Assembly (NCBI RefSeq): GCF_040939785.1
Contig: NZ_CP162553.1
Location: 5,413,001-5,477,000, forward strand
Source: Bradyrhizobium lupini
GTDB taxonomy: Bacteria; Pseudomonadota; Alphaproteobacteria; Rhizobiales; Xanthobacteraceae
DNA: 64,000 bases
Reading direction: 5' to 3'
Below are positions 1,405 through 60,996 of the stretch, one piece after another. Numbering within the stretch: position 1 is the first letter of the stretch; the number at the start of each line of letters is the position of its first letter. Under the pieces are notes generated by a model, which worked only from the letters and a program-made list of their open reading frames with translations, ran no database searches and was not told where the DNA came from. A program made the translations under genes and the position numbers.

Positions 1405-2356
1405 ATGGCCCGTTACGTCGCCAATCGCCTGGCGCAGGCGATCATGCTGCTGGTGATCGTGTCCGCGATCGGCTTCGCCATCCTGCATCTGGCGCCCGGC
1501 GGTCCGCTCTCGCAATTCGCGGCGTCCGCGCAGATGACGCAGGAGGATCTCGACCGCGTCACGCGGCAGCTCGGCCTCGATCGTTCGCTGCCGATCCAGT
1601 ATCTCGATTGGTTCGGCCGGATGCTGAGGGGCGATTGGGGCCGCTCGTATCGTGACGGCGAGGCGGTGCTGGCGGTGATCTCGTCGCATCTCGGCGCCAC
1701 GCTGGAACTGATGGCGACTGCGACCATCATCGCGGTGCTGCTCGGCTGCTGGATTGGCGTGCTCGGTGCGCTGCGCCGCTATTCGCTGTTCGATTCGCTC
1801 GCAACCGTCGGCGCCATGATCGCATTGTCGATCCCGACCTTCTGGTTCGGCCTCGTCACCATCTATGTGTTCTCGGTGAAGCTCGGCTGGCTGCCGGCCG
1901 GGAACCGGCAGACCGTCGGCGACGGCTCCCTGCTCGATCTGCTCCATCATCTCATTGCGCCGGCGCTGGTGCTGGCGCTGGTGGAGACCGCGATGTGGGG
2001 CCGCTTCATGCGCTCCGCGATGCTCGAAGTCATCAATCAGGACTACATTCGCACCGCGCGCGCCAAGGGCATGCCGGAATGGCAGAATCCTTACGGTTCA
2101 CGCCTTGCGGAACGCGTTGCTGCCGATGATCACGGTGGGCGGCCTTCAGTTTCCGACGCTGCTCGGTGGTGCGCTGGTCGCCGAGACCGTGTTCACCTGG
2201 CCCGGCATGGGCCGGCTGTTCCTCGATTCCATCGGATATCGCGACTATCCCGTGGTTATGGGCATTCTGATGTTCTCGGCGATCATGGTGCTGATTGGGT
2301 CGCTGCTGGCCGACATCCTCTATGCCGTCGTCGATCCGCGCATCCGGGTGGGCTAG
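1405..2356 (+). pseudogene. DppB-type ABC transporter permease, interrupted by a +1 frameshift
   Basis: This is the first inner-membrane permease of the peptide-type importer. The N-terminal part (MARYVANRLAQAIMLLVIVS...) and the region up to ARAKGMPEWQ are in one frame. The EAA-loop continuation (TVHALRNALLPM) and the last helices to PRIRVG are in the next frame, ending at the TAG 2354-2356. Removing one A from the AA at 2086-2087 gives ...GMPEWQILTVHALRN..., an uninterrupted family-typical protein of about 316 residues. Without that correction the first frame runs on through the downstream permease as a 609-codon fusion whose residues about 228-318 look like nonsense. Real lesion and sequencing error cannot be told apart here. 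Confidence 0.85.
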
Positions 2357-2358
2357 GG

Positions 2359-3234
2359 ATGACGACCGTAGACTTGTCCAGCGCTCAACCCGCACCCGGC
2401 CAGGCCGCGTGGCGGCGATTTCGTCGGCACCGGCTTGCGCTTGCAGGCGCGGTGATCATTCTCGCCCTTGTTCTCGGTTCGGCATTCGGCCCGTACCTCC
2501 TGCCGTTCGACGACACCTACATCGATATCATGAAGCGGTTCGCACCGCCGCTGTCGGGCGCGCACATCCTCGGCACCGACGAACTCGGCCGCGACGTGCT
2601 GGCGCGGCTGATGATGGGCGCGCGCGTCTCGCTGTCGATCGGCTTCGTCGCGATGGTGATGGCGATGGCGGTGGGCATCGTCGTCGGGGCCTTCGCCGGC
2701 TTCTATGGCGGCGTGGTCGGCGCGGTGCTGATGCGGCTCGTCGATGCCATGCTCTGCTTTCCGACCATCTTCCTGCTGCTTGCGCTCGCGGCGCTCATCG
2801 AGCCCGGCTTCGTCACCACCACCGTGCTGATCGCGGCAACTGCCTGGATGTGGGTGGCCCGCGTCGTCGAGGCCCAGGTGCGCTCGCTGCGGGAACGCGA
2901 GTTTGCGGTAGCTGCACTCGCGTTCGGCTCGTCGAACCTGCGGATCATGTTCCGCGAACTGGTGCCCAATGCGATCGCGCCCATCGTGGTGGCGGCGACG
3001 TTGAACGTCGCCAAGGCGATCCTGTTGGAATCCTATCTCAGCTATCTCGGTTACGGCATCCAGCCGCCGGCCGCGAGCCTCGGCAACATGCTCAACAATG
3101 CGCAGATCTATCTCACCAGCGCGCCCTGGCTCGCGATTGCGCCCGGCCTCGCCATCACGCTGGCGGTGACGAGCTTCAACTTTCTCGGCGACGGCCTGCG
3201 CGATGCGCTCGATCCGCGAATGAACATCCCATGA
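2359..3234 (+). CDS. DppC-type ABC transporter permease
   Basis: Second inner-membrane permease of the same importer, 291 residues. The ATG lies 2 bases after the stop of the preceding permease gene, so translation is probably coupled. Visible marks are an N-terminal helix (LALAGAVIILALVLGSAFG), the DppC-typical HILGTDELGRDVLARLMMGAR segment, about five further helices, and the EAA loop around EFAVAALAFGSSNLRIMFRE ahead of LVPNAIAPIVV. The C-terminus NFLGDGLRDALDPR is the standard ending for this family. It pairs with the B-permease and the fused ATPase at 5571-7439. Confidence 0.93.
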   Translation: MTTVDLSSAQPAPGQAAWRRFRRHRLALAGAVIILALVLGSAFGPYLLPFDDTYIDIMKRFAPPLSGAHILGTDELGRDVLARLMMGARVSLSIGFVAMVMAMAVGIVVGAFAGFYGGVVGAVLMRLVDAMLCFPTIFLLLALAALIEPGFVTTTVLIAATAWMWVARVVEAQVRSLREREFAVAALAFGSSNLRIMFRELVPNAIAPIVVAATLNVAKAILLESYLSYLGYGIQPPAASLGNMLNNAQIYLTSAPWLAIAPGLAITLAVTSFNFLGDGLRDALDPRMNIP

Positions 3235-3292
3235 TCTGCAAACTAGCGATGAGCAAGCTTGCTCCGATCGAACTGAATATCTGGAGTGTCCC

Positions 3293-4621
3293 ATGTCCCC
3301 GCCGCTCACCCGTATAAACAGCGACGAGCACCTGCCGGCGCAGGTGGATGTCGTCGTCATCGGAGGCGGCGTCATCGGCGTCTCCGCGGCCTATCACCTC
3401 GCGAAGAAGGGCCTCTCCGTTGCCCTGGTCGAGAAGGGCCATGTCGGCGGCGAGCAGTCGAGCCGCAATTGGGGCTGGTGCCGCCAGCAGGGCCGCGCGC
3501 GCGAGGAGATCCCGCTGGCTCGCGAGGCGCTGCGCCTGTGGGAAGACATGCAGAACGACGCCGGCGTCGATGCCGGCTTCCGCCGTACCGGTGTGCTGTT
3601 CCTGACCAAGAGCAAGGACGAACTCGCCAGCTGGGAGCGATGGGCCGCAACGGCGCGCGAGATGCAGGTCCACTCCACGGTCCTGACGCCGGCGGAGGTC
3701 GCCGAGCGCCTGCCCGGCAATTCCGAGACATGGGTCGGCGGATTGCACACGCCGAGCGACGGGCGCGCCGAGCCCTCGATGGCCGTGCCGGCCCTTGCGA
3801 CCGCCGCGCGAAAACACGGCGTCACCATTCATCAGGGCTGCGCCGCGCGTGGGTTGGAGACGCAGGGCGGACGGGTGAGCGCCGTCGTCACCGAGAAGGG
3901 CACCATTCGCACGCAATCGGTGCTGCTGTCCGGCGGCGCCTGGTCGTCGCTGTTCTGCCGCCGCCACGGCATCGAGCTGCCGATCGGCCTTGTCAACGCC
4001 ACCGCGTGCCGGACCACGCCGGGGCCGGAGATCACCTCCGGCGCGCTCGGCACCGATTTCTATTGCATCCGCCGCCGGCTCGACGGCGGCTTTACCCTGG
4101 CGCTGCGCAATCGCGGCACGGTCGAACTGTCGCCCGATCTGTTCCGCTACGCGCGGACCTTCTGGCCGACCTATCTGCATCGCAAGAACGGGTTGAAACT
4201 GTCGTTCGGCAAGTCCTTCTTCGACCAGCTCATGCGCGGCACGAGCTGGAGCTTGGACAAGCCGTCGCCATTCGAGACCGAGCGCGTGCGCGATCCCGCG
4301 CCTGACATGTCGCTGGTCAATGCCGCGCTGGCTTCGCTGATCAAGTCGAACCCGGAGCTGAAAAAGATCGAGATCGCGGAAGCCTGGGGCGGCACGATCG
4401 ACTGCACGCCGGATACCATTCCGGTCATCTCGCCGGTCGATGCCATGCCCGGCTTCTTCCTTGCCACCGGCTTCTCCGGCCACGGCTTTGGCATCGGTCC
4501 TGCGGCCGGCAAGCTCGCGGCGGACATCGTGACGGGCGCGACGCCGCTGGTCGATCCCGCGGCCTACAGCCACAAGCGCCTGATCGACGGCCGCCGGCTC
4601 GCGCCGGTCAGCCCGTTCTGA
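3293..4621 (+). CDS. FAD-dependent oxidoreductase, DAO (amine/amino-acid oxidase) family
   Basis: Flavoenzyme of 442 residues predicted to oxidise an amine or secondary amino acid. The N-terminal Rossmann motif VVVIGGGVIGVSAAYHLA (residues about 20-37) and the following E of VEKGHVGGEQSS bind FAD. The C-terminal FLATGFSGHGFGIGPAAGKL is the second DAO-family FAD segment. It lies 58 bases after the C-permease and 13 bases before the dehydrogenase, inside the transporter operon, so it probably acts on the imported compound. Substrate is unknown; sarcosine-, opine- and D-amino-acid-type enzymes all share this fold. No transmembrane segment is seen, so a cytoplasmic location is expected. Confidence 0.9.
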   Translation: MSPPLTRINSDEHLPAQVDVVVIGGGVIGVSAAYHLAKKGLSVALVEKGHVGGEQSSRNWGWCRQQGRAREEIPLAREALRLWEDMQNDAGVDAGFRRTGVLFLTKSKDELASWERWAATAREMQVHSTVLTPAEVAERLPGNSETWVGGLHTPSDGRAEPSMAVPALATAARKHGVTIHQGCAARGLETQGGRVSAVVTEKGTIRTQSVLLSGGAWSSLFCRRHGIELPIGLVNATACRTTPGPEITSGALGTDFYCIRRRLDGGFTLALRNRGTVELSPDLFRYARTFWPTYLHRKNGLKLSFGKSFFDQLMRGTSWSLDKPSPFETERVRDPAPDMSLVNAALASLIKSNPELKKIEIAEAWGGTIDCTPDTIPVISPVDAMPGFFLATGFSGHGFGIGPAAGKLAADIVTGATPLVDPAAYSHKRLIDGRRLAPVSPF

Positions 4622-4634
4622 GAGTTTTGGCGGC

Positions 4635-5561
4635 ATGACGGTTCTCTACAAGGCCAACATGGTTCGGGGCGCTGAATGGGCGGGCTTCTTCGCCGAGCGC
4701 GCGCCCGATGTGCCATTCCGGCTCTGGCCCGACATCGGCGATCCCGCCGACATCCGCTATCTCGTGGCGTGGGTGCCGCCGGACGACATCGCGACGACTT
4801 TCCCTAATCTCGAACTCGTTTTCTCGGTCGGTGCGGGTGTGGACCAGTTCGACCCGTCAATAGTTCCGCCGCACATTCCGCTGGTGCGCATGCTTGAGCC
4901 CGGTATCGCCGAGACGATGGTCGAATACGTCACCATGGCTGTGCTCGCGCTGCATCGCGATCTCCTGCACTTCATTGCTCAGCAGAAGGCGCAGGTCTGG
5001 CGCGAGATCCGGATCACGCCGGCCAAACGTCGTCGCGTCGGCGTGATCGGTCTCGGCCAACTCGGCCAGGCCGTGCTCGAACGCCTCACGGCGTTCGGCT
5101 TTCCGCTTCTCGGCTGGAATCGCTCGCCGCGCGAGATCGAGGGCGTCACGAGTTACGCGGGCATGGAGACGTTGCCGGATTTCCTTGCTCAGACCGACAT
5201 TCTCGTCTGCCTGCTGCCTTTGACCGACGAGACCCGCGGCATCCTGAATGCGGACTTGTTCGCGCGCCTGCCGCGCGGCGCGTCGCTCGTCAATGTCGGG
5301 CGTGGCCCGCATCTGGTCGAAGCCGACCTTCTCGCGGCGCTCGACAGCGGCGCGTTGTCGGGTGCTGTCCTCGATGTCGCCGAGCCGGAGCCGCTGCCTG
5401 CGGGTCACCCTTTCTGGAGCCACCCGCGCATCCTGGTCACGCCGCACAATGCCAGCATGACGACGCCGGATACGGCGGTCGATTTCGTGCTGGATGTGAT
5501 TGCGCGCCACCGCCGCGGTGAAGAATTGCCGGGGCGTGTCGATCGTAGTCGTGGCTATTAG
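4635..5561 (+). CDS. D-isomer-specific 2-hydroxyacid dehydrogenase (glyoxylate/hydroxypyruvate reductase A type)
   Basis: NAD(P)H-dependent reductase of 2-oxoacids such as glyoxylate or hydroxypyruvate, 308 residues. The dinucleotide site VGVIGLGQLGQAV lies near residue 136. The catalytic triad of the family is visible: Arg in VNVGRGPHLVEADLL, Glu in DVAEPEPLPAGHPFW and His in ILVTPHNASMT. Its short, divergent N-terminal domain (FSVGAGVDQF) matches the GhrA subgroup rather than PdxB or SerA. It is 13 bases downstream of the oxidoreductase and 9 bases upstream of the ATPase gene, so it may reduce the oxoacid released by that enzyme; this coupling is inference. Confidence 0.88.
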   Translation: MTVLYKANMVRGAEWAGFFAERAPDVPFRLWPDIGDPADIRYLVAWVPPDDIATTFPNLELVFSVGAGVDQFDPSIVPPHIPLVRMLEPGIAETMVEYVTMAVLALHRDLLHFIAQQKAQVWREIRITPAKRRRVGVIGLGQLGQAVLERLTAFGFPLLGWNRSPREIEGVTSYAGMETLPDFLAQTDILVCLLPLTDETRGILNADLFARLPRGASLVNVGRGPHLVEADLLAALDSGALSGAVLDVAEPEPLPAGHPFWSHPRILVTPHNASMTTPDTAVDFVLDVIARHRRGEELPGRVDRSRGY

Positions 5562-5570
5562 GACACTGGC

Positions 5571-7439
5571 ATGAGCATGGGCGCAAGCGGAGCTGATCAA
5601 ATCGCTGCCAACGCGCAGTCGCCGGTGCTGTCGGTTTCCGGCCTGACGACGTCCTTCCTGCGTGAGCGGCAATGGATTCCCGTCGTCTGCGACGTGTCGT
5701 TCGATATTGCCTCGCGGGAAACCGTGGCGATCGTCGGCGAGTCCGGTTCGGGCAAGAGCGTCACTGCGCTCTCGATCATGCGGCTCATTCCGAAGGAGAA
5801 CGGCCGGGTCGAAGGCAGCGTCCGGCTTGCCGGTCGCGACCTGCTGACGCTGCCCGAAGCGAGCATGAAGGATGTTCGTGGCAACGAAATCGCCATGATC
5901 TTCCAGGAGCCGATGACGAGCCTCAATCCGGTGCTGACCATCGGCTTCCAGATTGCGGAAGCACTGATCCAGCACCGCGGCCTGTCGCGCGCGGCGGCGG
6001 AGGTCGAGACCATATGCCTGCTCGACCGCGTGCGGATACCTGCGGCGAAATCGCGCTTCCACGAGCATCCGCATCGCTTCTCCGGCGGCATGCGCCAGCG
6101 CGTAATGATCGCGATGGCGCTGGCCTGCAAGCCGAGGCTGCTGATCGCAGACGAGCCGACCACCGCGCTCGACGTCACGATCCAGGCCCAGATCCTAGAG
6201 CTTCTGAAGGAGCTTCAGCAGGAAGAGGAGATGTCGATCCTCTTCATCACCCACGACATGGGGGTGGTGGCCGAGATCGCGGACCGCACCGTGGTGATGT
6301 ATGGCGGCCAGGCAGTGGAAACCGATGCGACCGCGCGCATCTTTGCTTCACCCTCGCATCCTTATACCCGCTCGCTGCTCGCGGCCGTGCCACGCCTCGG
6401 CTCGATGGACGGGCGGACGCGGCCGATGCGTTTTCCGACCGTCGACAAGGTGACGGGGACCTCTGACGAGCCGGCGGAGACGCCCGATACGGTCTCGATT
6501 GCCGAGCGACCGCTGCTCGAGGTCTCCAACCTCACGACGCGCTTTCCAATCCGCTCGGGCCTGTTCGGCAAGGTCTCGGGCCGCGTCCATGCGGTCGAGA
6601 ACATCTCCTTCACCTTGCGCGCCGGGGAGACGCTGGCGCTGGTCGGCGAATCCGGCTGCGGCAAGTCGACGACGGGCCGCTCCATTCTCAAGTTGACGGA
6701 GCCGGACAGCGGCACCGTTCTGGTGGACGGGCAGGATGTGCTGGCGATGAATGCCCGCACCTTGCGTGACTTTCGCAAGCAGATGCAGATCGTGTTCCAG
6801 GATCCGTTCGCGAGCCTCAACCCGCGCATGTCGGTGGGAACGGCGATTGCGGCCCCATTGCTCGCCAACGGGCTCGTCACGGCGTCGCAGGCACGGGAGA
6901 AGGTCGCCGACCTGCTTGTCCGCGTTGGTCTCACCGCCGACATGGCCGCGCGCTTTCCGCACGAATTCTCCGGTGGCCAGCGCCAGCGCATCTGCATTGC
7001 CCGCGCGCTCGCGCTCGGACCGAAGCTGATCGTCGCGGACGAAGCGGTCTCGGCGCTCGACGTTTCGGTCAAGGCGCAGGTCGTCAATCTGATGCTGGAC
7101 CTTCAGGCCAGCATGGGACTTGCCTATCTCTTCATTTCCCACGATATCGCGGTGGTCGAGCGCATGAGCCATCGCGTCGCGGTGATGTATCTCGGCGAGA
7201 TCGTCGAAACCGGTCCACGCGCGGCCCTGTTCGGAAATCCGCAGCATCCCTATACGAAGAAGCTGATGGGGGCCGTGCCGGTGCCCGATCCAGCGCGCCG
7301 CGGCACCAGGCGCGAGGCCACGAATGACGAGATCAGAAGCCCGGTGCGCGCGCCCGATTACCAGCCGCCCGTGCGTCAATATCGTGAGGTGTCGCCGGGC
7401 CATGTCGTCCAGCTCTGGGGCGAGGAATGGTCCAACTGA
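5571..7439 (+). CDS. Fused double ATP-binding protein of peptide-type ABC transporter (DppD-DppF fusion)
   Basis: Cytoplasmic energy module of the importer, 622 residues with two complete nucleotide-binding domains. The first has Walker A GESGSGKS at residues 56-63, signature RFSGGMRQRV and Walker B LLIADEPTTALD. The second has Walker A GESGCGKS at 359-366, signature EFSGGQRQRI and LIVADEAVSALD. Each domain ends with the oligopeptide-transporter C-terminal segment (SHPYTRSLLAAVP and QHPYTKKLMGAVP). One polypeptide therefore replaces the usual DppD/DppF pair, as often seen in rhizobia. It ends the operon: the next gene starts 270 bases away. Confidence 0.94.
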   Translation: MSMGASGADQIAANAQSPVLSVSGLTTSFLRERQWIPVVCDVSFDIASRETVAIVGESGSGKSVTALSIMRLIPKENGRVEGSVRLAGRDLLTLPEASMKDVRGNEIAMIFQEPMTSLNPVLTIGFQIAEALIQHRGLSRAAAEVETICLLDRVRIPAAKSRFHEHPHRFSGGMRQRVMIAMALACKPRLLIADEPTTALDVTIQAQILELLKELQQEEEMSILFITHDMGVVAEIADRTVVMYGGQAVETDATARIFASPSHPYTRSLLAAVPRLGSMDGRTRPMRFPTVDKVTGTSDEPAETPDTVSIAERPLLEVSNLTTRFPIRSGLFGKVSGRVHAVENISFTLRAGETLALVGESGCGKSTTGRSILKLTEPDSGTVLVDGQDVLAMNARTLRDFRKQMQIVFQDPFASLNPRMSVGTAIAAPLLANGLVTASQAREKVADLLVRVGLTADMAARFPHEFSGGQRQRICIARALALGPKLIVADEAVSALDVSVKAQVVNLMLDLQASMGLAYLFISHDIAVVERMSHRVAVMYLGEIVETGPRAALFGNPQHPYTKKLMGAVPVPDPARRGTRREATNDEIRSPVRAPDYQPPVRQYREVSPGHVVQLWGEEWSN

Positions 7440-7709
7440 CGTGCGCAGGCCACAAATCATTTCCAAAATGCACGATGAAGTCGCCCCGCGATCTGCCGGG
7501 CAGGTCAACGGTGGTGTCCTTCGCGACGCCAGGCCGGTGACATCACGCTGAAATCACAATGAAATCATCGCGGCACGGCCCGGTGCGACGGCCGGCCGCG
7601 CCAGCTTCGTGTTATGCGCTGCAGCTGGACCGTCGGCCGGCGATCTCCGATAATGTGCGGATCTCGGGAAGGCCGGCGAAGACGTGCCTTTACGGATGGA
7701 TTTACTAGA

Positions 7710-8636: not shown

Positions 8637-8639
8637 ATT

Positions 8640-28120: not shown

Positions 28121-28439
28121 GAGCCATCTGAACGCGGTGACGGTACTGCTTGCCGCGTTCGCCACGCGGGGATCGAAGCTCAAAGCGGAGGCGAATCAGG
28201 CTGATCTCGAACATACCGCAACGATTCCGCGCCGTTCCCTAAAAAACGGAGCCGGCGACTCCGGCGATCTCGGGCGTGGGCTGATTTTCGCCCCGTGATG
28301 CAAGGAGGCAACGGTAGTCTTGCGGATCACAAATCGGCAAATCAGGCACAAATCCGCCTGTAATGTCTTGAATGTGCCGCTATCTTCCGTCATCTGGCCG
28401 TTAACGGTCCGGACGGGGCCCGGGGACTATACAAGAGCG
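28121..28439. other. Divergent intergenic region
   Basis: These 319 bases lie between the hypothetical membrane-protein gene and the L,D-transpeptidase gene, which point away from each other. I see no coding frame, repeat or clear promoter box; GACGGGGCCCGGGGACTATA just before 28440 could include a weak -10 but is not convincing. Confidence 0.35.
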
Positions 28440-29634
28440 ATGATGATCAAACATTTTCTGACGATATGCGCTGCCGCAACAGTCGCTGCGGCGGGAACCT
28501 CGCTCGCACAGGCCCAGAGCTATCCGGTCCAGCAGGCGCCGAGCTATGGCGCGCCGCCGGCCGAATATCGGCCCGGCGACCGCGCGCCGAGTTTCGACGC
28601 GCTCGACGATGAAGATGACGCGATGCCGCAGGCAGCGCTGCCGCCGCCCGGTCCGGATCCGCGTTACGGCCGTCCGTCCGGCGCTCCCCCGGTGTATTCC
28701 GCCGCGCCGCCGCAGGGTCCGGTGATGTCGCCCGATGATCCCCGTTATGGCCGTCCCGCAGGTGCCCCCGTCTACTCGGCCGCGCCGCCGCAGGGTCCCG
28801 TGACGTCGCCCGACGACCCGCGCTACGGCCGCCCTGCCGGCCCGCCCGCGGTGATCTACGCCGATCGTCCGGCTCAGGCGCCCGGCAGTGATGGCCTGCG
28901 TCCGCCCGAGGCGGTCGGTGGTCCCGCCGCGACCGGAACGGTCCAGGCTGGGCAGCCGCCCGTTGGTGCCGACGGTCGGCCGATGGCGATCGCCTCGCTG
29001 CCGCCCGAGGAGCAGCCTGACGCTGCTCCGGCGCAGCTGCCGCAGAACCTGCGCCGTCAGGAGGTCTCGCTGGCGACCAAGGAGCCGGCCGGAACACTCA
29101 TCGTCGATACCCCAAATACCTACCTCTATTACGTGCTGGGCAACGGCCGCGCGATCCGCTACGGCGTCCGCGTTGGCCGGGACGGCTTCACCTGGACCGG
29201 CGTGCAGAAGATCACCCGCAAGGCCGAGTGGCCGGATTGGCATCCGCCGACCGAGATGATCGAGCGCCAGCCCTATCTGCCGCGTTTCATGGCCGGCGGT
29301 CCCGGCAATCCGCTCGGCGCCCGTGCGATGTATCTCGGCTCGACCGTCTACCGCATCCACGGCACCAACCAGCCCCTCGACGATCGGCAAGTTCGTGTCG
29401 TCCGGCTGCATCGGCATGCTGAACGAGGACGTCTCCGACTTGTTCGATCGCGTCAAGGTCGGCACCCGCGTGGTCGTGATGCCGGGTGGTCCGCCGCCGG
29501 GAACGGCGACCGCATCCGCCGCGCCCATGCCCGGCACTGCCGGCCCCGCACCAATGGCCGCGCAGGCCGGCCCGGTCGGAGGCACCCAGCCGACAGTGGT
29601 GCCGCCGCTGCCCGCGCCCGTCACCGTGCGCTGA
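28440..29634 (+). pseudogene. L,D-transpeptidase (YkuD) lipo/periplasmic protein, frameshifted before the active-site cysteine
   Basis: Peptidoglycan 3-3 cross-linking enzyme. The first frame encodes a signal peptide (MMIKHFLTICAAATVAAAGT...AQA), a Pro-rich region with three copies of a 26-27-residue repeat (DPRYGRP at 28656, 28737 and 28815), and the YkuD domain up to YRIHGTNQP. The next frame supplies STIGKFVSSGCIGMLNEDVS with the catalytic Cys, through to the stop at 29634. Deleting one C from CCCC at 29373-29376 joins them as HGTNQPSTIGKF. Uncorrected, the protein loses its nucleophile and gains a 90-residue nonsense tail. Confidence 0.85.
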
Positions 29635-29790
29635 ATCGGCTTCGCAAGAATTGATCTGATGACGGCGCATGGCCTTCGGTCACGCGCCGTCATCATTTGA
29701 CGCATGCGTGCAGGTCGCACTTGCGCATACTTGAACGGCTCCGCACCTCGATTACGTCCGGGAGGATTGCAACGAATTGAGGAGCACAGG

Positions 29791-30760
29791 ATGCGCATCT
29801 TTGTTGCGGGCGCGACCGGCGCGGTCGGTCAGTATCTTGTTCCGGCGCTGGTCGCCGCGGGTCATTCGGTGATCGGCACGACACGGAGTGCGGCAAAAAC
29901 AGACCTTGTACGGCGATTGGGTGCGGAGCCGGTCGTTGCCGACGGTCTCGATGCCGACAGCATGCGCGCTGCGGTGATTGCGGCAAAGCCCAACGCCGTC
30001 ATCCACCAGATGACAGATCTCGCGGCCGCCACGGACCTCCGGCATTTCGATCGGGCTTTCAAGCGAACCAACGAGCTCCGCACCCGCGGAACCGACATTC
30101 TGCTCAACGCCGCGCGCGAGGCCGGCGCCAAGCGCTTCATCGCGCAAAGCTTCTGCGGCTGGACCTTCAGTCGCGCCGGCGGAACGGTGAAGATCGAGAC
30201 CGATGAACTCGACTCGAATCCACCGCGAGAGCTGCGACGCACGCTCGAGGCAATCCGCTATCTGGAGCAGAATCATCACCGCTTCGACGAAGCCGGAGGG
30301 CATCGTGCTGCGCTATGGATTCTTCTATGGACCCGGCACCGGCACGCTCTCGCCGGCGATGATCGACCAGCTGCGCCACCGGCGTGTGCCGGTGATCGGT
30401 GACGGCGGCGGCACGTGGTCGTTCATTCACACCGAAGATGCAGCCTCTGCCACGCTCGCCGCGCTTGAACGCGGACGCACCGGCAGCATCTACAATATCG
30501 TCGACGATCATCCGGCGCCGGTGAAGGATTGGTTGCCCGCGCTGGCCGAACTCCTCGGTGCCAAGCCGCCGCGTCACATCCCCGCCTGGCTCGGGCGCCT
30601 GCTTGCGGGCGAGCATATGGTTGCGATGATGACGGAGGTGCGTGGAGCCTCCAACGGCAAGGCCAAGCGCGAGCTCGGTTGGCTGCCGGCGCATGCCTCC
30701 TGGCGCGACGGCTTTGCCGATGCGGCACGGCAGCCCACCAGCCAGCGCTCGGCGGCCTGA
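29791..30760 (+). pseudogene. NAD-dependent epimerase/dehydratase family protein, frameshifted
   Basis: Extended SDR protein. The N-terminal half (MRIFVAGATGAVGQYLVPAL, with the GxxGxxG nucleotide motif, then AQSFCGWTFS) is in one frame up to AIRYLEQ. The C-terminal half (ITASTKPEGIVLRYGFFYGP through WSFIHTEDAASATLAAL and YNIVDDHPAPVKDW) is in the next. One A removed from AA at 30271-30272 (context GCAGAATC) restores YLEQIITAS and a product of about 322 residues. The ATG at 29791 has GAGGAG upstream. Neighbours give no hint of pathway. Confidence 0.83.
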
Positions 30761-33938: not shown

Positions 33939-35166
33939 ATGATGCGGCGGGTGCTGATAGCTGCGGTGATCGCTATCACCTGCAGCCTGTCGCCCGCCGG
34001 CGCTGCCGACGCCGCCTTCGCGCAGTTCATCGCCTCGCTGTGGCCGGAGGCGGAGGCCGCCGGCGTGTCGCGCGCGACGTTCGAGCGAGAGACGCGCGGG
34101 CTCGAGCCGGACTACAAGCTGCCGGATCTGATCCTGCCGGGGCGTCCCGCAACGGGGGCGCCGTCACAGGCCGAGTTCGTGCAGGTGCCGGCCGACTATG
34201 TCAGGGAAGCCTCGATCGCGCGGCTTGCGGGCGAGGGGCAGCGGTTGCTGCAAAAATATCGCCCCGCGCTGACCGAGATCGAGAAAAAACTCCGGCGTGC
34301 CTGCTACCGTGATGCTGGCGATCTGGGGCCGCGAGACCGACTATGGCCGCTATACGCTGCCTTACGATCTCGTCCGCGTGCTGGCGACGCAGGCCTATGT
34401 CGGCCGCCGCAAGGACAGCTATCGCAACGAGTTCATCCTCTCGCTGAAAATTCTCGGTGACGGCGTAGTGACACGCAAGGACATGCGCTCGTCCTGGGCC
34501 GGTGCGACCGGGCTCACGCAATTCCTGCCGTCCGAATATTACAAGCATGGCGTCGATTTCGACCGCGACGGCCGCATCGACATCTGGCACTCGGTGCCGG
34601 ATGCGCTGGCCTCCGCCGCGCAGCAGCTCGTCAACAAGGGCTGGCAGAGCGGTGTACGCTGGGCCTACGAGGTGCAGGCACCGGCCAAAGTCGATTGCAC
34701 CGCCGGCGTGCCCGAGGTGACGAAGCCGATCGGCCAATGGCTGCGCGAAGGCTTTGTACCGGTGCGTGGACAAAAGCTCACTGCCGCCGAGCAGGCACAG
34801 CCGGCGTCCCTGCTGCAGCCTGAAGGCATCTACGGCCCGTCCTTCCTGACCACGAAGAACTACTTCGTGATCAAGGAATACAATTTTTCCGACCTCTACG
34901 TGCTGTTCGTCGGACATCTCGCCGACCGCATGACGAGCCCGCAACCGTTCGCGACCCCATGGTCTGCCTCGAAGCAATTGCGGACCAAGGACGTCGAGGC
35001 GATGCAGCGGGGGCTCACGCACGTCGGGCTCTACAAGGACAAGATCGACGGCAAGGCGGGCATGCAGACGCGCGCTGCGCTCGGCGCCTACCAGAAGTCG
35101 GCAGGCCTCAAGGTCGATTGCTGGCCGAGCGAAGAGGTGCTGCGCTCGATCCAGGCGGCGCGATAG
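33939..35166 (+). pseudogene. MltB-type lytic murein transglycosylase with peptidoglycan-binding domain, frameshifted
   Basis: Cell-wall lyase. A signal peptide (MMRRVLIAAVIAITCSLSPA...) and the first 115 residues are in one frame, to LTEIEKK. The next frame continues SGVPATVMLAIWGRETDYGR (SLT_2 core with the catalytic Glu), SWAGATGLTQFLPSEYYK and a C-terminal PG_binding_1 domain (QRGLTHVGLYKDKIDGKAG). Deleting one A from AAAAAA at 34284-34289 restores EIEKNSGVPATVM and about 408 residues. It starts 7 bases after ettA, so it may be cotranscribed with it. Confidence 0.85.
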
Positions 35167-37641: not shown

Positions 37642-38280
37642 CTACAACTGCGTCTTGTAGAGCTCTTCCACGATCTCCTGACTCTGCGGCTCACCAAGGC
37701 CGGTCTGCTCGTGGACCACCTCGACGATGCTCGGCATCACCGAGCGCGGCACCTTCTCGGACGACCAAAGCTTCGAGCGCATCAGTGCCTTGCCGCAGTG
37801 GAAATAGACTTCGCTGACGGCGACGTTCAGCACCGCGCGCGGCGACTTGCCAAACTCCACCATCGAGGCGAGCAGGTCCGGATCGGCGGACAGCGAGCCG
37901 CGGCCGCCGACGCGCAGCGTCTCGTCGATGCCGGGGACGAAGAACAACAGATGCACGAAGCCCGAGCCCTCGACGACATTTCGAAAACTGTCGATCCGGT
38001 TGTTGCCGGAGCGATCAGGCATCAGCAGCTGGTTGGGGCCGGCGACGTGGACGAAGCCAACGCCGCCGCCGCGTGGTGAGGCATCGACGCTGCCGTCCGC
38101 TCCCGATGTCGCGAGCACGCAGAACGGCGACATCTCGATGAATTTCTTCGCATGCGTGTCGATTGCGGGGCGCGCTTTCGCGATCACGCGCGGGCTCGGC
38201 TGGGCATAGATGGTGGCGAGGTCTTCGGCGCAAAGATCAGTCACGAAGGTCTCCCTGGTGGAATGCCCCGAGAATATCAT
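37642..38280 (-). CDS. Pyridoxamine 5'-phosphate oxidase family (FMN-binding split barrel) protein
   Basis: A 212-residue flavin- or F420-type split-barrel protein. Characteristic segments are IEMSPFCVLATSGADGSVDA, SPRGGGVGFVHVAG, LLMPDRSGNNRIDSFRNVVE and HLLFFVPGIDETLRVGGRGS. This is the MSMEG_1061-like subgroup rather than the PdxH enzyme of vitamin B6 synthesis. The start may be the GTG 12 codons further in (VTDLCAEDL), since the first residues look unlike the family. Reaction unknown. Confidence 0.85.
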   Translation of the reverse strand: MIFSGHSTRETFVTDLCAEDLATIYAQPSPRVIAKARPAIDTHAKKFIEMSPFCVLATSGADGSVDASPRGGGVGFVHVAGPNQLLMPDRSGNNRIDSFRNVVEGSGFVHLLFFVPGIDETLRVGGRGSLSADPDLLASMVEFGKSPRAVLNVAVSEVYFHCGKALMRSKLWSSEKVPRSVMPSIVEVVHEQTGLGEPQSQEIVEELYKTQL

Positions 38281-38295
38281 CTCTCGGCCCGATCG

Positions 38296-38506
38296 CTATC
38301 CCCCTTTGTCACGCCGCCGCGTCCAGTCGATCACGCCAGCGCAGTTCAGAGCCCACCAGATCAGGACTGGCTGCAGCGCCAGCCGCGGCCCGTGATAGAG
38401 CCAGCTGTTGGGGATGGGTGGAAGGTCGATGCCCTCCAGGACCTGCTTGATGCTTGCCGCCCACACGCAAGGCGGATAGAGCGCGAGCTCGCGTTCTGTC
38501 GTTCAC
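38296..38506 (-). pseudogene. Candidate small Trp-rich protein gene, one base out of frame near its start
   Basis: The frame before the TAG at 38296-38298 reads ERELALYPPCVWAASIKQ, then VLEGIDLPPIPNSWLYHGPR, LALQPVLIWWALNCAGVIDW and TRRRDKGG. This looks like real protein (five Trp, a hydrophobic segment, basic end) but has no start codon in frame; it is opened by a TGA at 38505. A GTG at 38506 in the adjacent frame (VNDR) joins it if one A of AA (TT at 38494-38495 on the plus strand, minus context CAGAACG) is removed, giving about 69 residues. I do not recognise a family. Confidence 0.35.
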
Positions 38507-38551
38507 AGGAGCTATCGGCCGAGCTAGCACGCGCCGCGTCGAGGGATCGCG

Positions 38552-38896
38552 CTACACCGCATCCGCCGGCACGAAGCAACTGATGATGATGGCGCCGCGG
38601 TGACGGACGTACCACACCACGGCCTGGCCGACCGGATTGCCGCGGTCGCGGATGATGGCGCGCTCGGGCACCTCCATCCATTGTCCCTCGATCGGCACCC
38701 AATAGGCACCGCTGCGCACGTCGTACTCCGTGCGATGGCCGTCGGAGACGTCACAGCAGGGCACGCCGTTCGGTGCGATCACGCTCTTGAACCAGGCGCG
38801 GATGTCGGGCGGGACGTGATCATATTGCCCGTTGTCGAACGCGAACGCGGCGCCCGTCAGTGCGGCCAGCCAAACGCACAGTGCGAGCCTGTGCAT
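38552..38896 (-). CDS. Exported hypothetical protein
   Basis: A 114-residue protein with a signal peptide (MHRLALCVWLAALTGAAFAF, cleavage near AFA). The mature part contains YDHVPPDIRAWFKSVIAPNG, PCCDVSDGHRTEYDVRSGAY and WVPIEGQWMEVPERAIIRDR, ending IISCFVPADAV. An adjacent Cys pair and a third Cys near the end suggest a disulfide-stabilised periplasmic fold. No function is known to me. Confidence 0.82.
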   Translation of the reverse strand: MHRLALCVWLAALTGAAFAFDNGQYDHVPPDIRAWFKSVIAPNGVPCCDVSDGHRTEYDVRSGAYWVPIEGQWMEVPERAIIRDRGNPVGQAVVWYVRHRGAIIISCFVPADAV

Positions 38897-41729: not shown

Positions 41730-41939
41730 ACTCCCCGATCAACGCCGCTTCCGTCTTTGGAAGCGGATCGAGAACAAACGACCCCCAAGCCGTAGATCTA
41801 CGGTGGGCGGGTTTGGTTAACGAAACGTTAACCGCGGGCGATCGCACGAATTGACCTTGGGAATGCCGCCGCACCGCCGCGATTGGCACGGATTGCATAT
41901 TCCTGCGAGCATACCCCGCAAAGCAGGCATCCCTCCCGC

Positions 41940-50484: not shown

Positions 50485-52554
<2,070 letters not shown>

Positions 52555-52585
52555 AGTGGCGTGCGGGGTGAGAGAGTGAGGCGCA

Positions 52586-53963: not shown

Positions 53964-53986
53964 GGGGTGTCTCTCCAAATGACACT

Positions 53987-54107: not shown

Positions 54108-54135
54108 AGCGGAGTGTACGGCGAGCGCATCCCCG

Positions 54136-55349: not shown

Positions 55350-55354
55350 CCCTG

Positions 55355-55457
55355 TCCCTTCGCCGGCATGACCCGGATCAGGTTCAAAGGGTCACCGCGG
55401 TCCTGGGCGGATTTGCCCATTTAGCGGTATCTCAGCTCCTCCTCGGAGCACCCCTCG
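55355..55457 (-). promoter_or_regulatory. TPP (THI box) riboswitch
   Basis: Read on the minus strand this contains the THI-box consensus: GGGGTGCTCC, CTGAGATACCGC, then ACCCTTTGAACCTGATCCGG and GTCATGCCGGCGAAGGGA. Both TPP-binding cores, CTGAGA and ACCTGATCTGG-like, are intact. The 3' P1 strand (GAAGGGA) lies immediately before ACAGGG and the thiO ATG, so TPP binding would hide the ribosome binding site. This fits translational control, as usual in Gram-negative bacteria. Confidence 0.95.
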
Positions 55458-55467
55458 GAACGGCTCT

Positions 55468-55496
55468 AATGTATGCCAGTAGGACTGGGTGGTCAA
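55468..55496 (-). promoter_or_regulatory. Sigma-70-type promoter of the thi operon
   Basis: On the minus strand, TTGACC (55496-55491) and TACATT (55473-55468) are separated by exactly 17 bases. The expected transcription start, about 55461, is at the 5' end of the riboswitch, which supports the assignment. Confidence 0.75.
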
Positions 55497-55517
55497 CGCG
55501 CTTGGCGGGAACCGGGC

Positions 55518-56066
55518 TTACCTGGGCGCCTGTGCCCGGGCGTTGCGGACGCGCTGGGCGAGCTTGCGGTGCGGCGCGGCGCCGAATATCGGCTGCGGAT
55601 TGCCGTTCGGCTCAAGCCAAGGGGAGCCCATATTGGCCTCGCTCGTATTGGCGACCTGCACGGCCTCCTGCCGTTGCCGCTTTGCGGCGTAGTAATAGCC
55701 GCCGGCGAAATAACGCACGGCGCGGGCGTGATCGCCATTGGCGGCGTGATAGGCGCCGGCGAGATATTTCACAGCATAGGTGAGATTGGTGTTGGGATCG
55801 CGCAGGCCGGCGGCGTCGCCGGTGTAGCCGACCCCGCGGGCGGTCGCGAGCTTGATCTGCATCAGCCCGATGGTGCCGCCATGGCCGACCAGGCCGGGCT
55901 GGTAGCGGCTCTCGCGCATGATGACGCGATGCACCAGCGCCTCCGGCACACCGTTGGCGCGCGCATGGGCCGCGACCATCTCGGCGTACTCCGTCTGGCC
56001 CGCGAATGCGGCCTGCGGCAACGTCAGTCCGGCCGCGAGCAGCGCGGCAACATGTAAAATTTTCAT
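55518..56066 (-). CDS. Exported lytic transglycosylase (SLT domain)
   Basis: A 182-residue protein with a signal peptide (MKILHVAALLAAGLTLPQAA, cleavage near AFA) and a small SLT (goose lysozyme-like) domain: LVHRVIMRESRYQPGLVGHG carries the catalytic Glu, followed by GTIGLMQIKLATARGVGY and NLTYAVKYLAGAYHAANGDH. The C-terminal 40 residues are basic and unstructured. It cleaves peptidoglycan in the periplasm. It is upstream of and convergent with nothing; the thi promoter lies just beyond its stop. Confidence 0.9.
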   Translation of the reverse strand: MKILHVAALLAAGLTLPQAAFAGQTEYAEMVAAHARANGVPEALVHRVIMRESRYQPGLVGHGGTIGLMQIKLATARGVGYTGDAAGLRDPNTNLTYAVKYLAGAYHAANGDHARAVRYFAGGYYYAAKRQRQEAVQVANTSEANMGSPWLEPNGNPQPIFGAAPHRKLAQRVRNARAQAPR

Positions 56067-56301
56067 CAAATGTTCCTCGGCACCGCTCACCTGCGCCCGC
56101 TCGCGTTAGGCCCCGCGAACGCGGCGATGATGTGGCGAAACGCCTCCGATTACGTTTTTGCAGCGCAGAGCCGTCATTCGGACGCAAGGCCGGCGTAGGG
56201 CTTGTCATGCAGACGAAGCCGTCATTCGCGACAGCGGGCCTGTCTATTCGCGTGTGGGCCCGAAAGCGAGTAAGAGAGCGGCGCAAATCGGGAGAGGTGC
56301 C

Positions 56302-56517
56302 ATGACAAAAGAAAACGTGGTGAAGGCACACATCGGCGACATTCCCAGGCAAAATCCCTGTGCGCAATGCGGCGCGCCGATCCCCCAACCTGATTGGATC
56401 GAGGCGGGCGACGGACGCATCTCCTATCTTTGGACATGCCGTGCTTGCAATTATCGCTTCGAGGCGGTTGCGATTTTTGATGAGGGAGCCGTCGCGCACC
56501 CGCCGCTTGCGGCCTGA
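56302..56517 (+). CDS. Small zinc-ribbon-like hypothetical protein
   Basis: A 71-residue protein with two Cys pairs, CAQCGAPIPQPDW and WTCRACNYRF, spaced as in a zinc ribbon. The ATG at 56302 follows GGAGAGG at proper spacing. No further domain. It may bind Zn and act in nucleic-acid or protein contacts; function unknown. Confidence 0.75.
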   Translation: MTKENVVKAHIGDIPRQNPCAQCGAPIPQPDWIEAGDGRISYLWTCRACNYRFEAVAIFDEGAVAHPPLAA

Positions 56518-56531
56518 GGTTTAGTCTTCGG

Positions 56532-56596
56532 GCATGATCTTTTCGGAAAACCGCTGCACACTTTGCGCTGGCGCGGCCCTTCGGGTCCGGATCATG
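56532..56596. repeat. Palindromic GATC-containing intergenic repeat
   Basis: GCATGATCTTTTCGGAAAAC at the left and GGTCCGGATCATG at the right are the ends of a palindrome I recall as common in Bradyrhizobium genomes. The centre (CTTTGCGCTGGCGCGGCCCT) departs from the usual form. Only copy seen in this window. Confidence 0.5.
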
Positions 56597-56598
56597 GC

Positions 56599-56724
56599 TT
56601 AAGCCGCAAGCTGCGGCTGCTGCCGTACCGGCAATTGCATCCGCACGATCAGCCCATGCGGCTCCCGGTCGTGCAGCGACAGCTCGCCGCCGTGGGCGAT
56701 CGCGATCGCGCGCGCCGCATGAAT
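56599..56724 (-). pseudogene. C-terminal remnant of a sensor histidine kinase
   Basis: The 41 codons before the TAA at 56599-56601 read IHAARAIAIAHGGELSLHDR, EPHGLIVRMQLPVRQQPQLA, a good match to the G2 box and final strand of a histidine-kinase ATPase domain (AIAxAHGGxLxLxxxxxxGLxVxxxLP). A stop codon lies just upstream at 56725-56727 and no N-terminal part is present. It is a decayed gene end. Confidence 0.6.
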
Positions 56725-56827
56725 TTATCGACGAAATCGTGCGCTGCGAAATGTTCCTGAGTGACTTAGGAACAATTGAACGCAGCCCAGATGCTCGCGC
56801 AGCACGCGACGAAATTGCAGCACGCGC

Positions 56828-56852
56828 GGAACTGGGACTGATCCGAGCTGTT
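56828..56852 (+). promoter_or_regulatory. EcfG-type (general stress) promoter before the PRC-barrel gene
   Basis: GGAAC (56828-56832) is followed after 17 bases by GTT (56850-56852), close to the GGAAC-N16/17-cGTT consensus of the alphaproteobacterial general-stress sigma factor EcfG. A start near 56860 would leave a short leader of about 30 bases to the ATG at 56890. PRC-barrel proteins are frequent members of this regulon. Confidence 0.55.
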
Positions 56853-56889
56853 TTCTCCGCACAAGTTTTCTGCTGAAGGAGAGGACAAT

Positions 56890-57435
56890 ATGTTGATGAA
56901 ATCGATCGCGGCCGGTCTTGCCGGTACCGCACTGCTCGCAACCGTTGCGTTCGCGCAAAATCCGACCGCCACCACCGACAAGGCGCCGGCTGCCGCGGCG
57001 ACGACGACCGCCACGACCGCGTCGGGACAGTGGCGTACGTCCAAGATGGACGGCATCAAGGTCTATAACGACGCCAATGAGAACATCGGCTCGATCAACG
57101 ATCTGCTGATGGACAAGAGCGGTAACATCAAGATCGCTGTGATCGGCGTCGGCGGCTTCCTCGGCCTGGGCGAGCATCTGGTTGCGGTGCCCTTTGAGAA
57201 GCTGAAATTCGTCAACGAGGCGGTTGCCTACACCGGCGCTGCCGGGAACAACCCGAACAGCGCAGCCAACCGGCCCGCGGCGACTACCACGACGGGTGCC
57301 GCGACCGGCACCGACAACAAGCCCGCGACGACAACGACGGCCACGTCCGCGTCGAAATGGTATCCGGACCACGCCGTGTTCAATGCGAGCAAGGACGAGC
57401 TGAAGAACATGCCCGAGTTCAAATACTCGGAGTAA
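56890..57435 (+). CDS. Exported PRC-barrel domain protein
   Basis: A 181-residue protein with a signal peptide (MLMKSIAAGLAGTALLATVA, cleavage near AFA). A PRC-barrel domain follows low-complexity Ala/Thr: QWRTSKMDGIKVYNDANENI, GSINDLLMDKSGNIKIAVIG and VGGFLGLGEHLVAVPFEKLK. A second Ala/Thr linker leads to a short C-terminal segment (WYPDHAVFNASKDELKNMPE). GGAGAGG lies 7 bases upstream. Periplasmic; probably a stress-induced protein given the EcfG-like promoter. Confidence 0.9.
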   Translation: MLMKSIAAGLAGTALLATVAFAQNPTATTDKAPAAAATTTATTASGQWRTSKMDGIKVYNDANENIGSINDLLMDKSGNIKIAVIGVGGFLGLGEHLVAVPFEKLKFVNEAVAYTGAAGNNPNSAANRPAATTTTGAATGTDNKPATTTTATSASKWYPDHAVFNASKDELKNMPEFKYSE

Positions 57436-57458
57436 CGCGGCTCTGAACGGCTAAACGA

Positions 57459-57486
57459 AGCGCGCCCGGTTTTTGCCGGGCGCGCT
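57459..57486. terminator. Hairpin between convergent genes
   Basis: AGCGCGCCCGG pairs perfectly with CCGGGCGCGCT around TTTTTG. It lies between the PRC-barrel gene and the convergent binding-protein gene. No T tract follows, so efficiency as an intrinsic terminator is uncertain. Confidence 0.55.
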
Positions 57487-57536
57487 GTCGTGCTCTTCCC
57501 AACCTCTCCCCGCAAGCGGGAAGAGGGAGAAGAACT

Positions 57537-58748
57537 TCAGTGCGTCACCAGCGGGCAGCCGCCCTTGTCGAGCGGACGGAAGGCCTCGTCGCCGGGCACG
57601 GTGGCGATCAGCTTGTAGAGGTCCCACTCGCCCTTGGAGTCCTCGGGCTTCTTGACCTCGAAAAGATACATGTCGTGGACCATGCGGCCGTCGATGCGGA
57701 TCTTGCCGTTCTTGGCGAAGAAGTCGTCGACCGGTGTCTTGCGCATCTGCTCCATCACCTTCGGTGCCTCGTCGGTCTTGATGGCGTCGATCGCCTTCAG
57801 GTAATGCATGGTCGCGGAATAGAGCCCCGCCTGGATCATGGTCGGCATGTGACCGACTTTCTCGTTGAAGCGCTTGGAGAAGGCGCGCGTCTCCTCGTTG
57901 GTGTCCCAGTAGAACGCGTCGGTGATGATGAGGCCTTGCGTCGACTTGATGCCGAGCGAATGAACGTCGGTGATCTCCATGAGCAAGGCGATCATCTTCT
58001 GGCCGCCCTCCGTCAGGCCGAACTCGGCCGCCTGTTTCAGCGCATTGGTGGTGTCGCCGCCGGCATTGGCCAGTGCGACCACCTTGGCCTTGGAGGCCTG
58101 GGCCTGGAGCAGGAAGGAGGAGAAGTCCGACGAGTTGAGCGGATGGCGGACCTCGCCGAGCACCTTGCCGCCGCTCTCCTTGACGACGTTGGCGGCGTCG
58201 CGCTGCAGCGCCATGCCGAAGGCGTAGTCGGCGGTGACGAAGAACCAGGTGTCCTCGCCGCGCTTGACCATCGCCTTGCCGGCGACGTTCGACAGCGCAT
58301 AGGTGTCGTAGGTCCAGTGCACCGTGTTGGGCGAGCAGGCGACGCCCGTGATATCGGATGAGCCGCCGCCGGAATTGATGTGGATCTTGTTCTTCTCGCG
58401 CGTCAACGCCGAGATCGGCAGCGCCACCGACGAGGTCGGCACGTCGAAGATCGCGTCGACCTTGTCGTTGTCGTACCAGTTGCGGGCGATGTTGACGCCG
58501 ACGTCGGGCTTGTTCTGGTGATCGGCGGAGACCACCTGCACGGGCTTGCCCGCGACTTTGGCACCGTAATCGGCGACCGCCATCTCCACGGCGGCGAGCG
58601 AGCCCTTGCCGGTCGCGTCCGCATAGAGGCTCGACATGTCCGTGAGCACGCCGATCTTGACGACGTCGTCGGAAATCTGCGCCTGGGCGGCGCCTGACGT
58701 GGCGGCGAGCGCGAGACCGGCCGCGATCGCGGCGATGAGCTTTTGCAT
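57537..58748 (-). CDS. ABC transporter substrate-binding protein (branched-chain amino-acid type)
   Basis: Periplasmic receptor of 403 residues in the Leu/Ile/Val-type family. Signal peptide MQKLIAAIAAGLALAATSGA; mature part opens with ISDDVVKIGVLTDMSSLYAD, and SADHQNKPDVGVNIARNWYD and FVTADYAFGMALQRDAANVV are family segments. The mature domain binds an amide, amino acid or aromatic-acid ligand; not identifiable here. No permease or ATPase gene is adjacent, so it is an orphan receptor serving a transporter encoded elsewhere. Confidence 0.93.
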   Translation of the reverse strand: MQKLIAAIAAGLALAATSGAAQAQISDDVVKIGVLTDMSSLYADATGKGSLAAVEMAVADYGAKVAGKPVQVVSADHQNKPDVGVNIARNWYDNDKVDAIFDVPTSSVALPISALTREKNKIHINSGGGSSDITGVACSPNTVHWTYDTYALSNVAGKAMVKRGEDTWFFVTADYAFGMALQRDAANVVKESGGKVLGEVRHPLNSSDFSSFLLQAQASKAKVVALANAGGDTTNALKQAAEFGLTEGGQKMIALLMEITDVHSLGIKSTQGLIITDAFYWDTNEETRAFSKRFNEKVGHMPTMIQAGLYSATMHYLKAIDAIKTDEAPKVMEQMRKTPVDDFFAKNGKIRIDGRMVHDMYLFEVKKPEDSKGEWDLYKLIATVPGDEAFRPLDKGGCPLVTH

Positions 58749-58905
58749 TTTGTTTCTCCCTCAGCGTTGTTGTTTGGGTTTTGTTGCGGGGACCGTTCTA
58801 ACGACAATCGGTCCCCGGAGCAAAGCCCGAGAATGCGCGAGGAGGGTTGAGAAATAAGCAGGGCGCGGCAGTGTTTTCACCCTCTCCCCGGGAGAAGGAA
58901 GAAGC

Positions 58906-59736
58906 TCACGCGCTGCTGCCCTTGAGCCGTTCGTTGCGCCGGCGCAGGCCTTCCAGGGTGGCGAGCAGGATGACCGAGACCGTCGTCAGGATCACCGCTG
59001 CCGCCGTGATGGTCGGGCTGATGTTCTCGCGGATGCCGCTGAACATCTCGCGCGGCAGGGTGCGCTGCTCGGGACCTGCCATGAACAGCACGATCACCAC
59101 CTCATCGAAGCTGGTCGCGAAGGCGAACAGGGCCCCCGATGCCACGCCGGGCAGGATCAGCGGCAGGATCACTCGGCGGAAGGCGTCAAGCGGCGAGGCA
59201 CCGAGCGAGGCGGCAGCGCGGGCCAGATTGGTGTCGAAGCTCTGCAGCGTCGCGCCGACCGTGATGACGACGAAGGGCGTCGCCAGCGCGGTGTGGGCCA
59301 GGATCAAGCCGAGATAGCTGCCGGTCAATCCGATCGGCGCGAAGAAGAAATAGAGACCGACCGCGGTGATGACCCCGGGCACGACGACCGGCGACAGCAC
59401 GAAGGCCAGCACGAGCGGCTTGAACCGGCTCTTCCACTGCGCCAGCCCTAACGCCGCCAGCGTGCCGAGCACCATCGACAGCAGGGTCGAGGCGACACCG
59501 ATGATCATGCTGTTCTTCAGCGAATTCATCCAGCGCGGCGAATTGATGAAGTCGTCGTACCAGCGCAGCGAGAGGCCCGGCAGCGGATAGGTGAGGTACG
59601 AGCCCGAGCTGAACGACAGCGGCATGATCGCAAGGATCGGCGCAATCAGGAAGATGAACACCAGCGTGGAGATCACGATGGTCGCGGTCCACGCAATGCG
59701 CTGACTCGGCGTGCGGATGGAGGAATTGTCGCTCAA
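58906..59736 (-). CDS. PotC-type ABC transporter permease
   Basis: Inner-membrane permease of 276 residues of a spermidine/putrescine-type importer. About six helices, beginning ATIVISTLVFIFLIAPILAI, and the EAA loop DTNLARAAASLGASPLDAFR-RVILPLILPG are visible. The predicted start is TTG 59736 (MSDNSSIRT), whose bases overlap the TGA of the upstream permease (sequence AATTGAG), giving stop-start coupling. Last gene of the operon. Confidence 0.88.
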   Translation of the reverse strand: MSDNSSIRTPSQRIAWTATIVISTLVFIFLIAPILAIMPLSFSSGSYLTYPLPGLSLRWYDDFINSPRWMNSLKNSMIIGVASTLLSMVLGTLAALGLAQWKSRFKPLVLAFVLSPVVVPGVITAVGLYFFFAPIGLTGSYLGLILAHTALATPFVVITVGATLQSFDTNLARAAASLGASPLDAFRRVILPLILPGVASGALFAFATSFDEVVIVLFMAGPEQRTLPREMFSGIRENISPTITAAAVILTTVSVILLATLEGLRRRNERLKGSSA

Positions 59737-60996
59737 TTCTTCATCCCTCCCGTGACCTGCTGTCCCTGCACCAGCTTTCCGTAGACGAGCGCGAGCAGAA
59801 TAGTGGCGAGCAGCAGCACCGCACCCAGTGCCGAAGCAAGGCCCCAATTGGCCGTCTCGGTCGTGTAGAGCGCGATGAAGTAGCTGATCATTTGATCGGC
59901 GGCGCCCCCCGACGAGTGCCGGCGTGATGTAATAGCCGAGCGCCAGGATGAAGACGAGCAGGCTTCCCGCGCCGATGCCCGGCAGCGTCTGAGGCAGGTA
60001 GATCCGCAGGAAGGCGGTGAGGGGTGGTGCACCGAGCGAGGCGGCGGCACGCATGTAAGCAGGCGAGATCGCCTTCATGCTGCTGTACAGCGGCAGGATC
60101 ATGAACGGCAGGAGAACGTGGGTCATGGCCACGCAGACACCAAAGCGGTTGTAGATCAGGCGCAACGGCTCGTCGATGATGCCAAGCCAGAGCAGGCTGT
60201 CGTTCACGACGCCTTTGCTCTGCAACAGAACGATCCAGGCGCAGGTGCGGACCAGCAGCGACGTCCAGAACGGCAGCAGGACGAAGATCATCAGCAAATT
60301 CGACCGGCCGGGCGGCAGCGCGGCCAGCAAGTAGGCGACCGGAAAGCCAAGGATCAGGCACAGCACCGTGACACTGAGGCTGATGAGGAAGGTGCGGACG
60401 AAAACGTCGCGGTAGATGGCCTGATCCGGCGGGGCTGCGACGATCGCGCCGTCCACGTTCCGCGTCAGATCGAGCGCCGACAAAAGATAGAAGCCGGTCA
60501 CGGGGCCACTGGCGTCCTTGATCGTGGTCCAGGTGGCGCGTTCGCGCCAGGCCGGGTTGATCTTGCCCAGCGTCTCCCTCGCCGTGCCGGGCTCGGGCGC
60601 AGTCTTCAGATTGCGTGCGGTGCTGGTCAGGATCGTGCGGAAGCCGTTCAGTGCGTAGTTGAGCCGCTTGGCCGCAATCGCAATGGTGCCGGAATCGCGC
60701 GCCGCCATGATGTCGCCCGCCAGCGCCGCGTAGGCCTTTTCGTCCGGCAGATCCCTGCCGTCCCAACTGGCGAGAGCCGCGATGGTCTGAGGCAGAACCA
60801 GACGCACCTCGCGGTCATCGACGGCACGCCACAGCATGCCGGCGATGGGCCCAGCGAAGGTGAAGAGCAGGAAGACGAGAAGCGGCAGAACCAGCGCCAA
60901 TGCTTTGACCTGGCGTGCTCGCTCCGCCCGCCGCAATCGGCGCTTGAGCGGCACCTCGGTCGGGCCATGGGCGCCGGTCAAGAGCGCATCCGTCAT
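59733..60996 (-). pseudogene. PotB-type ABC transporter permease, frameshifted near the C-terminus
   Basis: Inner-membrane permease with a long periplasmic insert (about residues 66-200) between the first and second helices. The first frame runs to FILALGYYITPALVGG; the next frame continues AADQMISYFIALYTTETANW, GLASALGAVLLLATILLALV and ends GGMKN. One C too many in CCCCCC at 59905-59910 (G run on the coding strand) explains the break. Without correction the first frame stays open through the whole of the next permease (696 codons). Confidence 0.85.

Follow-up and report, generated by a model that had tools for sequence, protein, structure and literature searches.

One-base frame breaks in the chromosome assembly of Bradyrhizobium lupini as very probable consensus errors

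The Bradyrhizobium lupini genome is assembled as a single contig of 7,826,318 bases (7.83 Mb), and the window analysed here, a stretch of 64,000 nucleotides (bases 5413001-5477000), contains five genes whose reading frames are each interrupted by one extra base. These interruptions, together with others found elsewhere, are very probably consensus errors of the assembly that are spread over the whole chromosome, as judged from comparisons with related sequences. In fact, the breaks are one-base changes of both signs that are private to this assembly, affect single-copy core genes and dispensable genes alike, and are absent from congeners. In the living strain the genes are most likely intact; the frameshifts are almost certainly not a real feature of it.

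Five interrupted genes in the window

The five genes are listed below, with positions counted from the first base of the window.

1405..2356 (limits approximate, from open reading frames, ORFs), plus strand: DppB/OppB-type ABC permease gene; frame break at 2084-2087 (CAGAATC)
28368..29634, plus strand: L,D-transpeptidase gene; frame break at 29373-29376, in a C run one base longer than that of the relatives
29704..30760, plus strand: NAD-dependent epimerase/reductase gene; frame break at 30269-30272 (CAGAATC)
33939..35166, plus strand: MltB-type lytic transglycosylase gene; frame break at 34284-34289, in an A run
59733..60996 (limits approximate), minus strand: PotB/PotH-type ABC permease gene; frame break at 59905-59910, in a C run

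It had been predicted from the window sequence that each of these genes carries one extra base, and this was confirmed by the net gain relative to related sequences and by a jump in codon phase at every site. The window has one base more than every aligning relative in the dppB-type permease (at 2086, 3 relatives), the L,D-transpeptidase (29373, 83), the transglycosylase (34286, 85) and the potB-type permease (59907, 5), and a net gain of one base over 14 of 15 relatives in the epimerase (30271), the other one giving +2. These numbers are counts of loci, among which at least one duplicate is likely, as L053 and G011 look like the same assembly. The named relatives belong to Bradyrhizobium, the closest over the central region being B. 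canariense BTA-1 (L029), with 95.1% DNA identity. Substitutions on either side of all five sites are found mainly at one codon phase, which jumps by one at the site, and past each break they continue to fall on the third positions of the shifted codons. The presence of third-position substitutions on both sides indicates that the five genes were under purifying selection until the break.

The comparison of these genes with those of related strains, which had been suggested as a check, showed that the relatives mostly carry them in one frame and that the five breaks are not common to them; the changes are private to the window assembly, and relatives lack the extra base at all five sites. Three of the genes were surveyed in 86 sequences (80 named loci, five congeners and the window), of which the matching ones were counted. 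The L,D-transpeptidase is in a single frame in 76, partial at contig ends in four, and broken in the window and in L091, although elsewhere in the gene in the latter. The epimerase is in a single frame in 14, partial in two, and broken in the window and in L090, and its Pfam Epimerase match in the window falls as two halves in two frames. The transglycosylase is in a single frame in 84 and broken elsewhere in L071, while the window was scored as partial because a filter left its pieces unpaired; its SLT_2 domain is found there as two pieces in two frames. For the permeases, the intact G011 orthologues are an Opp/Dpp permease (L009:9079-10029) and a PotB/PotH-like protein (L012:11052-12371).

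The original prediction also placed every extra base in a run of identical bases. This holds at 29373 (C), 34284 (A) and 59905 (C), but not at 2084 and 30269, where, in the alignments, the additional A falls between C and G (C-GCATC or C-GAAGC in relatives, CAGAATC in the window). As the relatives lack an A between these two bases, the AA run is not the best placement at either site. Runs of six A or six C are of the slippery type, and it could be imagined that the runs serve for programmed frameshifting, so that full proteins would be produced via recoding. The A6 and C6 runs would suit such a mechanism, but there is no run at two of the five sites and the relatives hold the same genes in one frame, for which reason we rejected this explanation and give it almost no chance of being correct.

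Excess of breaks and split core genes

The congener sample consisted of 12 genomes, and the four-genome comparisons included the window genome, G011, G008 and G005. In 200 kb (155-165 kb aligned), 12 breaks backed by at least two other genomes were observed here, compared with none in G011, none in G008 and two in G005, one of which is a 22-base insertion. This supports the earlier suggestion that the breaks are more numerous than normal. Before applying the filter of at least two congeners, the break clusters were 16 here, 8 in G011, 4 in G008 and 12 in G005. The codon-phase test is blind to breaks in genes with few substitutions. When compared with G011 alone over 355,285 aligned columns, 23 breaks were assigned to the window genome (21 of them one-base) and 8 to G011, with 9 undecided.

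The 21 one-base breaks of that comparison, the epimerase break and one from the four-genome comparison make up a set of 23 one-base coding breaks over 460 kb, with 12 insertions and 11 deletions. Consequently, the claim that all events are +1 is valid for the five in the window but not outside it, where 7 insertions and 11 deletions were found among 18 breaks, and the difference between the two is weak (Fisher p = 0.037).

Other counts were obtained with ORF-based tests, which are noisy because of over-long ORF starts and spurious ORFs; the tblastn test and that of the rpoB region are affected likewise. With tblastn, when all three other genomes were required to be intact, there were 10 rows here (two in one gene) versus 1, 0 and 2. 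In the 60 kb rpoB region, 4 of 39 and 5 of 39 genes were flagged here, and 2 of 51 and 2 of 41 in congeners. Shifted stretches of at least 60 bases were found in 64 genes here and 50 in G011; these are mostly ORF artefacts and the counts were left unused.

It could be argued that ordinary decay has recently turned some of the five window genes into true pseudogenes, in a strain whose assembly is otherwise affected by errors as well. Transporters, L,D-transpeptidases and transglycosylases are often redundant, and L091, L090 and L071 each carry a single break in a gene of the same family as one of the five. By contrast, at the congener rate the expected number of real breaks among the five is well below one, and the codon phase gives no sign of decay past the breaks. 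As the congener mean is 0.67 compared with 12 here, about nineteen in twenty breaks are in excess. We infer that the real breaks among the five of the window number one or two at most, and perhaps zero, and we consider this explanation unlikely. Decay of the genome in general was rejected because in-frame stops are not raised alongside the frameshifts: 10 were counted here and 16 in G011, the majority of them within short ORFs or close to where an ORF starts.

Consensus error is further suggested by the core genes, as three of the five tested (rpoC, dnaE and ftsZ) are split, while rpoB and ileS are open. The sole rpoC is found here as a 1223-amino-acid frame followed by a separate frame of 435 amino acids, whereas in all 12 congeners the second match continues in frame with the first, giving a single frame; near the break (7051357, L196) there is one base fewer than in G008 and G011. 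In dnaE (one-base break at 7515060, L195), the pieces 1-285 and 295-1022 are in two frames, whereas all 3 congeners compared have the gene in a single frame. There is also a second polC-type gene, 1215 amino acids long. The only ftsZ match is a frame of 394 amino acids, compared with 625-627 in G005, G008, G009 and G011 (G005 and G009 hold a second, shorter copy), and the one-base break at 5536560 (L198) removes the alphaproteobacterial C-terminal extension, which is present in the intact G011 protein. Since bacteria cannot do without rpoC, ftsZ and the replicative dnaE, a cell with all three split could hardly live, which argues for consensus error as the explanation. The CheckM completeness of the window genome, 96.81, fits with this, as 11 of the 12 congeners have values of 99-100 (the remaining one, 93).

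Weak matches to the ileS profile were also observed at 7615304-7615435 and 7825536-7825958, in frames shorter than those of similar matches in congeners (342 versus 599 amino acids, and 216 amino acids with one stop). These are possibly more split synthetase genes.

Another explanation is a real mutator lineage, prone to indels, in whose living cells one-base changes would have accumulated through impaired mismatch repair or a loss of replication fidelity. The occurrence of both signs, the many genes affected and the presence of some sites in runs (29373, 34284 and 59905) would be expected in such a lineage. Nevertheless, mutS (916 amino acids) and mutL (644 amino acids) are both open, many break sites are outside runs, in-frame stops show no excess, and splits in the single-copy rpoC, in ftsZ and in dnaE would be expected to be lethal. 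The open repair genes and the split core genes led us to reject this explanation, which is very improbable. The original prediction had also preferred consensus error to a mutator, and the three core genes, broken here and whole in the tested congeners, agree with that preference.

Some observations do not favour the consensus-error explanation. Private one-base indels of any kind are 25 in 200 kb here versus 10, 22 and 13 in the congeners, and 12 in a 60 kb region versus 13 and 8, while a looser tblastn test found 17 broken genes here versus 9, 13 and 7. Additionally, the type of error differs from the usual shortening of homopolymers, and a small number of breaks could be real. The total number of indels is dominated by real non-coding evolution, and the excess sits in conserved coding sequence.

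Regarding their origin, one-base errors would have remained in the consensus because data from a single technology, probably a long-read one, as suggested by the assembly into one contig and by the kind of error, were insufficiently polished. The case resembles the gene-fragmenting indel errors described for long-read assemblies (Kastor, PMC12007338), with one-base frame breaks throughout a contiguous bacterial assembly, core genes included, that become visible by comparison with relatives. Unlike in that case, the errors are not mainly homopolymer shortenings here, and the technology is deduced. The assembly is also similar to the nanopore-only Bradyrhizobium assemblies described in PMC11237496 in having a closed, one-contig chromosome, presumably from one long-read technology. 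These results warn against inferring pseudogenes, lost functions or a mutator lineage from this assembly. If the rate of 12 breaks in about 160 kb of alignment is extrapolated, false breaks may affect several hundred genes.

The GANTC context

Four of the 23 one-base coding breaks (5286725; 5415084, window 2084; 5443269, window 30269; and 5536560, in ftsZ) fall within the 8-mer GCAGAATC, and in each of them the A has been added between C and G. This 8-mer contains a GANTC site, the target of CcrM, and only 12 copies of it, including the sites themselves, are present on both strands of the 460 kb, so that the chance of this coincidence is p = 1.7e-11 over all breaks. As the idea arose from the window, the test was also made outside it, where 2 of 18 breaks are in GCAGAATC (p = 6.6e-6). 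Moreover, 3 of 22 coding breaks are at most one base from a GANTC in the G011 sequence, for a background of 1.05% (p = 0.0015), compared with 4 of 450 other one-base indels. By contrast, a general GANTC rule is not favoured by the private one-base indels of any kind, of which just 1 of 25 and 0 of 12 have GANTC nearby. GCGAATC is found 7.0 times per 100 kb here versus 11.1 in G011 in the 460 kb, but it is not lower in a spread sample (12.2), and no consistent depletion emerged when k-mers were used to test for a wholesale loss of CGAATC.

All four GCAGAATC insertions are on the plus strand, which has nine of the copies (three are on the minus strand), numbers too small to judge strand bias.

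A CcrM candidate is open in the window genome, as a 377-amino-acid frame with a RAMA domain whose best NCBIfam match is CcrM (608.7 bits, under the model cut-off of 830). According to PMC4840208, 99.77% of GANTC sites are methylated in cultured B. diazoefficiens, and PMC12392509 ties GANTC to two potential errors in Brucella nanopore assemblies. Additionally, PMC11649196 lists methylation among the sources of error and describes 798 differences that raised the coding sequence count of a 2.56 Mb assembly. The proximity of 3 of 22 coding breaks to GANTC is similar to the methylation-linked errors of PMC12392509, although what recurs here is an A added before GAATC and the methylation of this strain is presumed.

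GANTC methylation is a plausible cause of miscalls here, by which part of the errors would cluster at GANTC sites because the adenine there would be methylated by CcrM. More specifically, some errors might be sequence-specific, with an extra A turning CGAATC into CAGAATC, or an extra C turning GATTCG into GATCTCG, at a few per cent of the CcrM-methylated GANTC sites, a proposal that we advance tentatively and to which we give somewhat less than even chances. If it were true, the methylome of an alphaproteobacterium would be a source of false frameshifts in the organism's own genes, including ftsZ. The recurrent GCAGAATC context could be used as a simple screen of other CcrM-bearing genomes.

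Other indels and the presumed sixth site

Two further features of the window are the following.

28206..28206, no strand assigned: non-coding site with one extra C inside GATTC; indel called in 77 of 77 relative groups
38152..38583, plus strand: ORF presumed to be a sixth interrupted gene; equal in length to that of one aligning relative

At 28206, where there is no codon phase, the net change is +1 relative to 66 of the 77 groups. An extra C inside GATTCG was observed twice, in this conserved non-coding position and in a LysR-type gene at 5316499.

A sixth interrupted gene, with its break near 38494, had been considered probable. The ORF has no family match in Pfam or NCBIfam, and the sole aligning relative (B. 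canariense BTA-1, L029) shows equal length, so that this case was not supported. Of the CAGA-A contexts that had been pointed out, CAGAATC recurs outside the window, whereas CAGAACG drops out with this site.

Finally, at 41745 and 41391 the window has one base fewer than 74 of 75 and 61 of 69 relative groups, respectively. Both positions, which lie at the margin of a small minus-strand ORF or immediately beyond it, are probably non-coding; from its translation, we take this ORF to encode a Fis-type helix-turn-helix protein.
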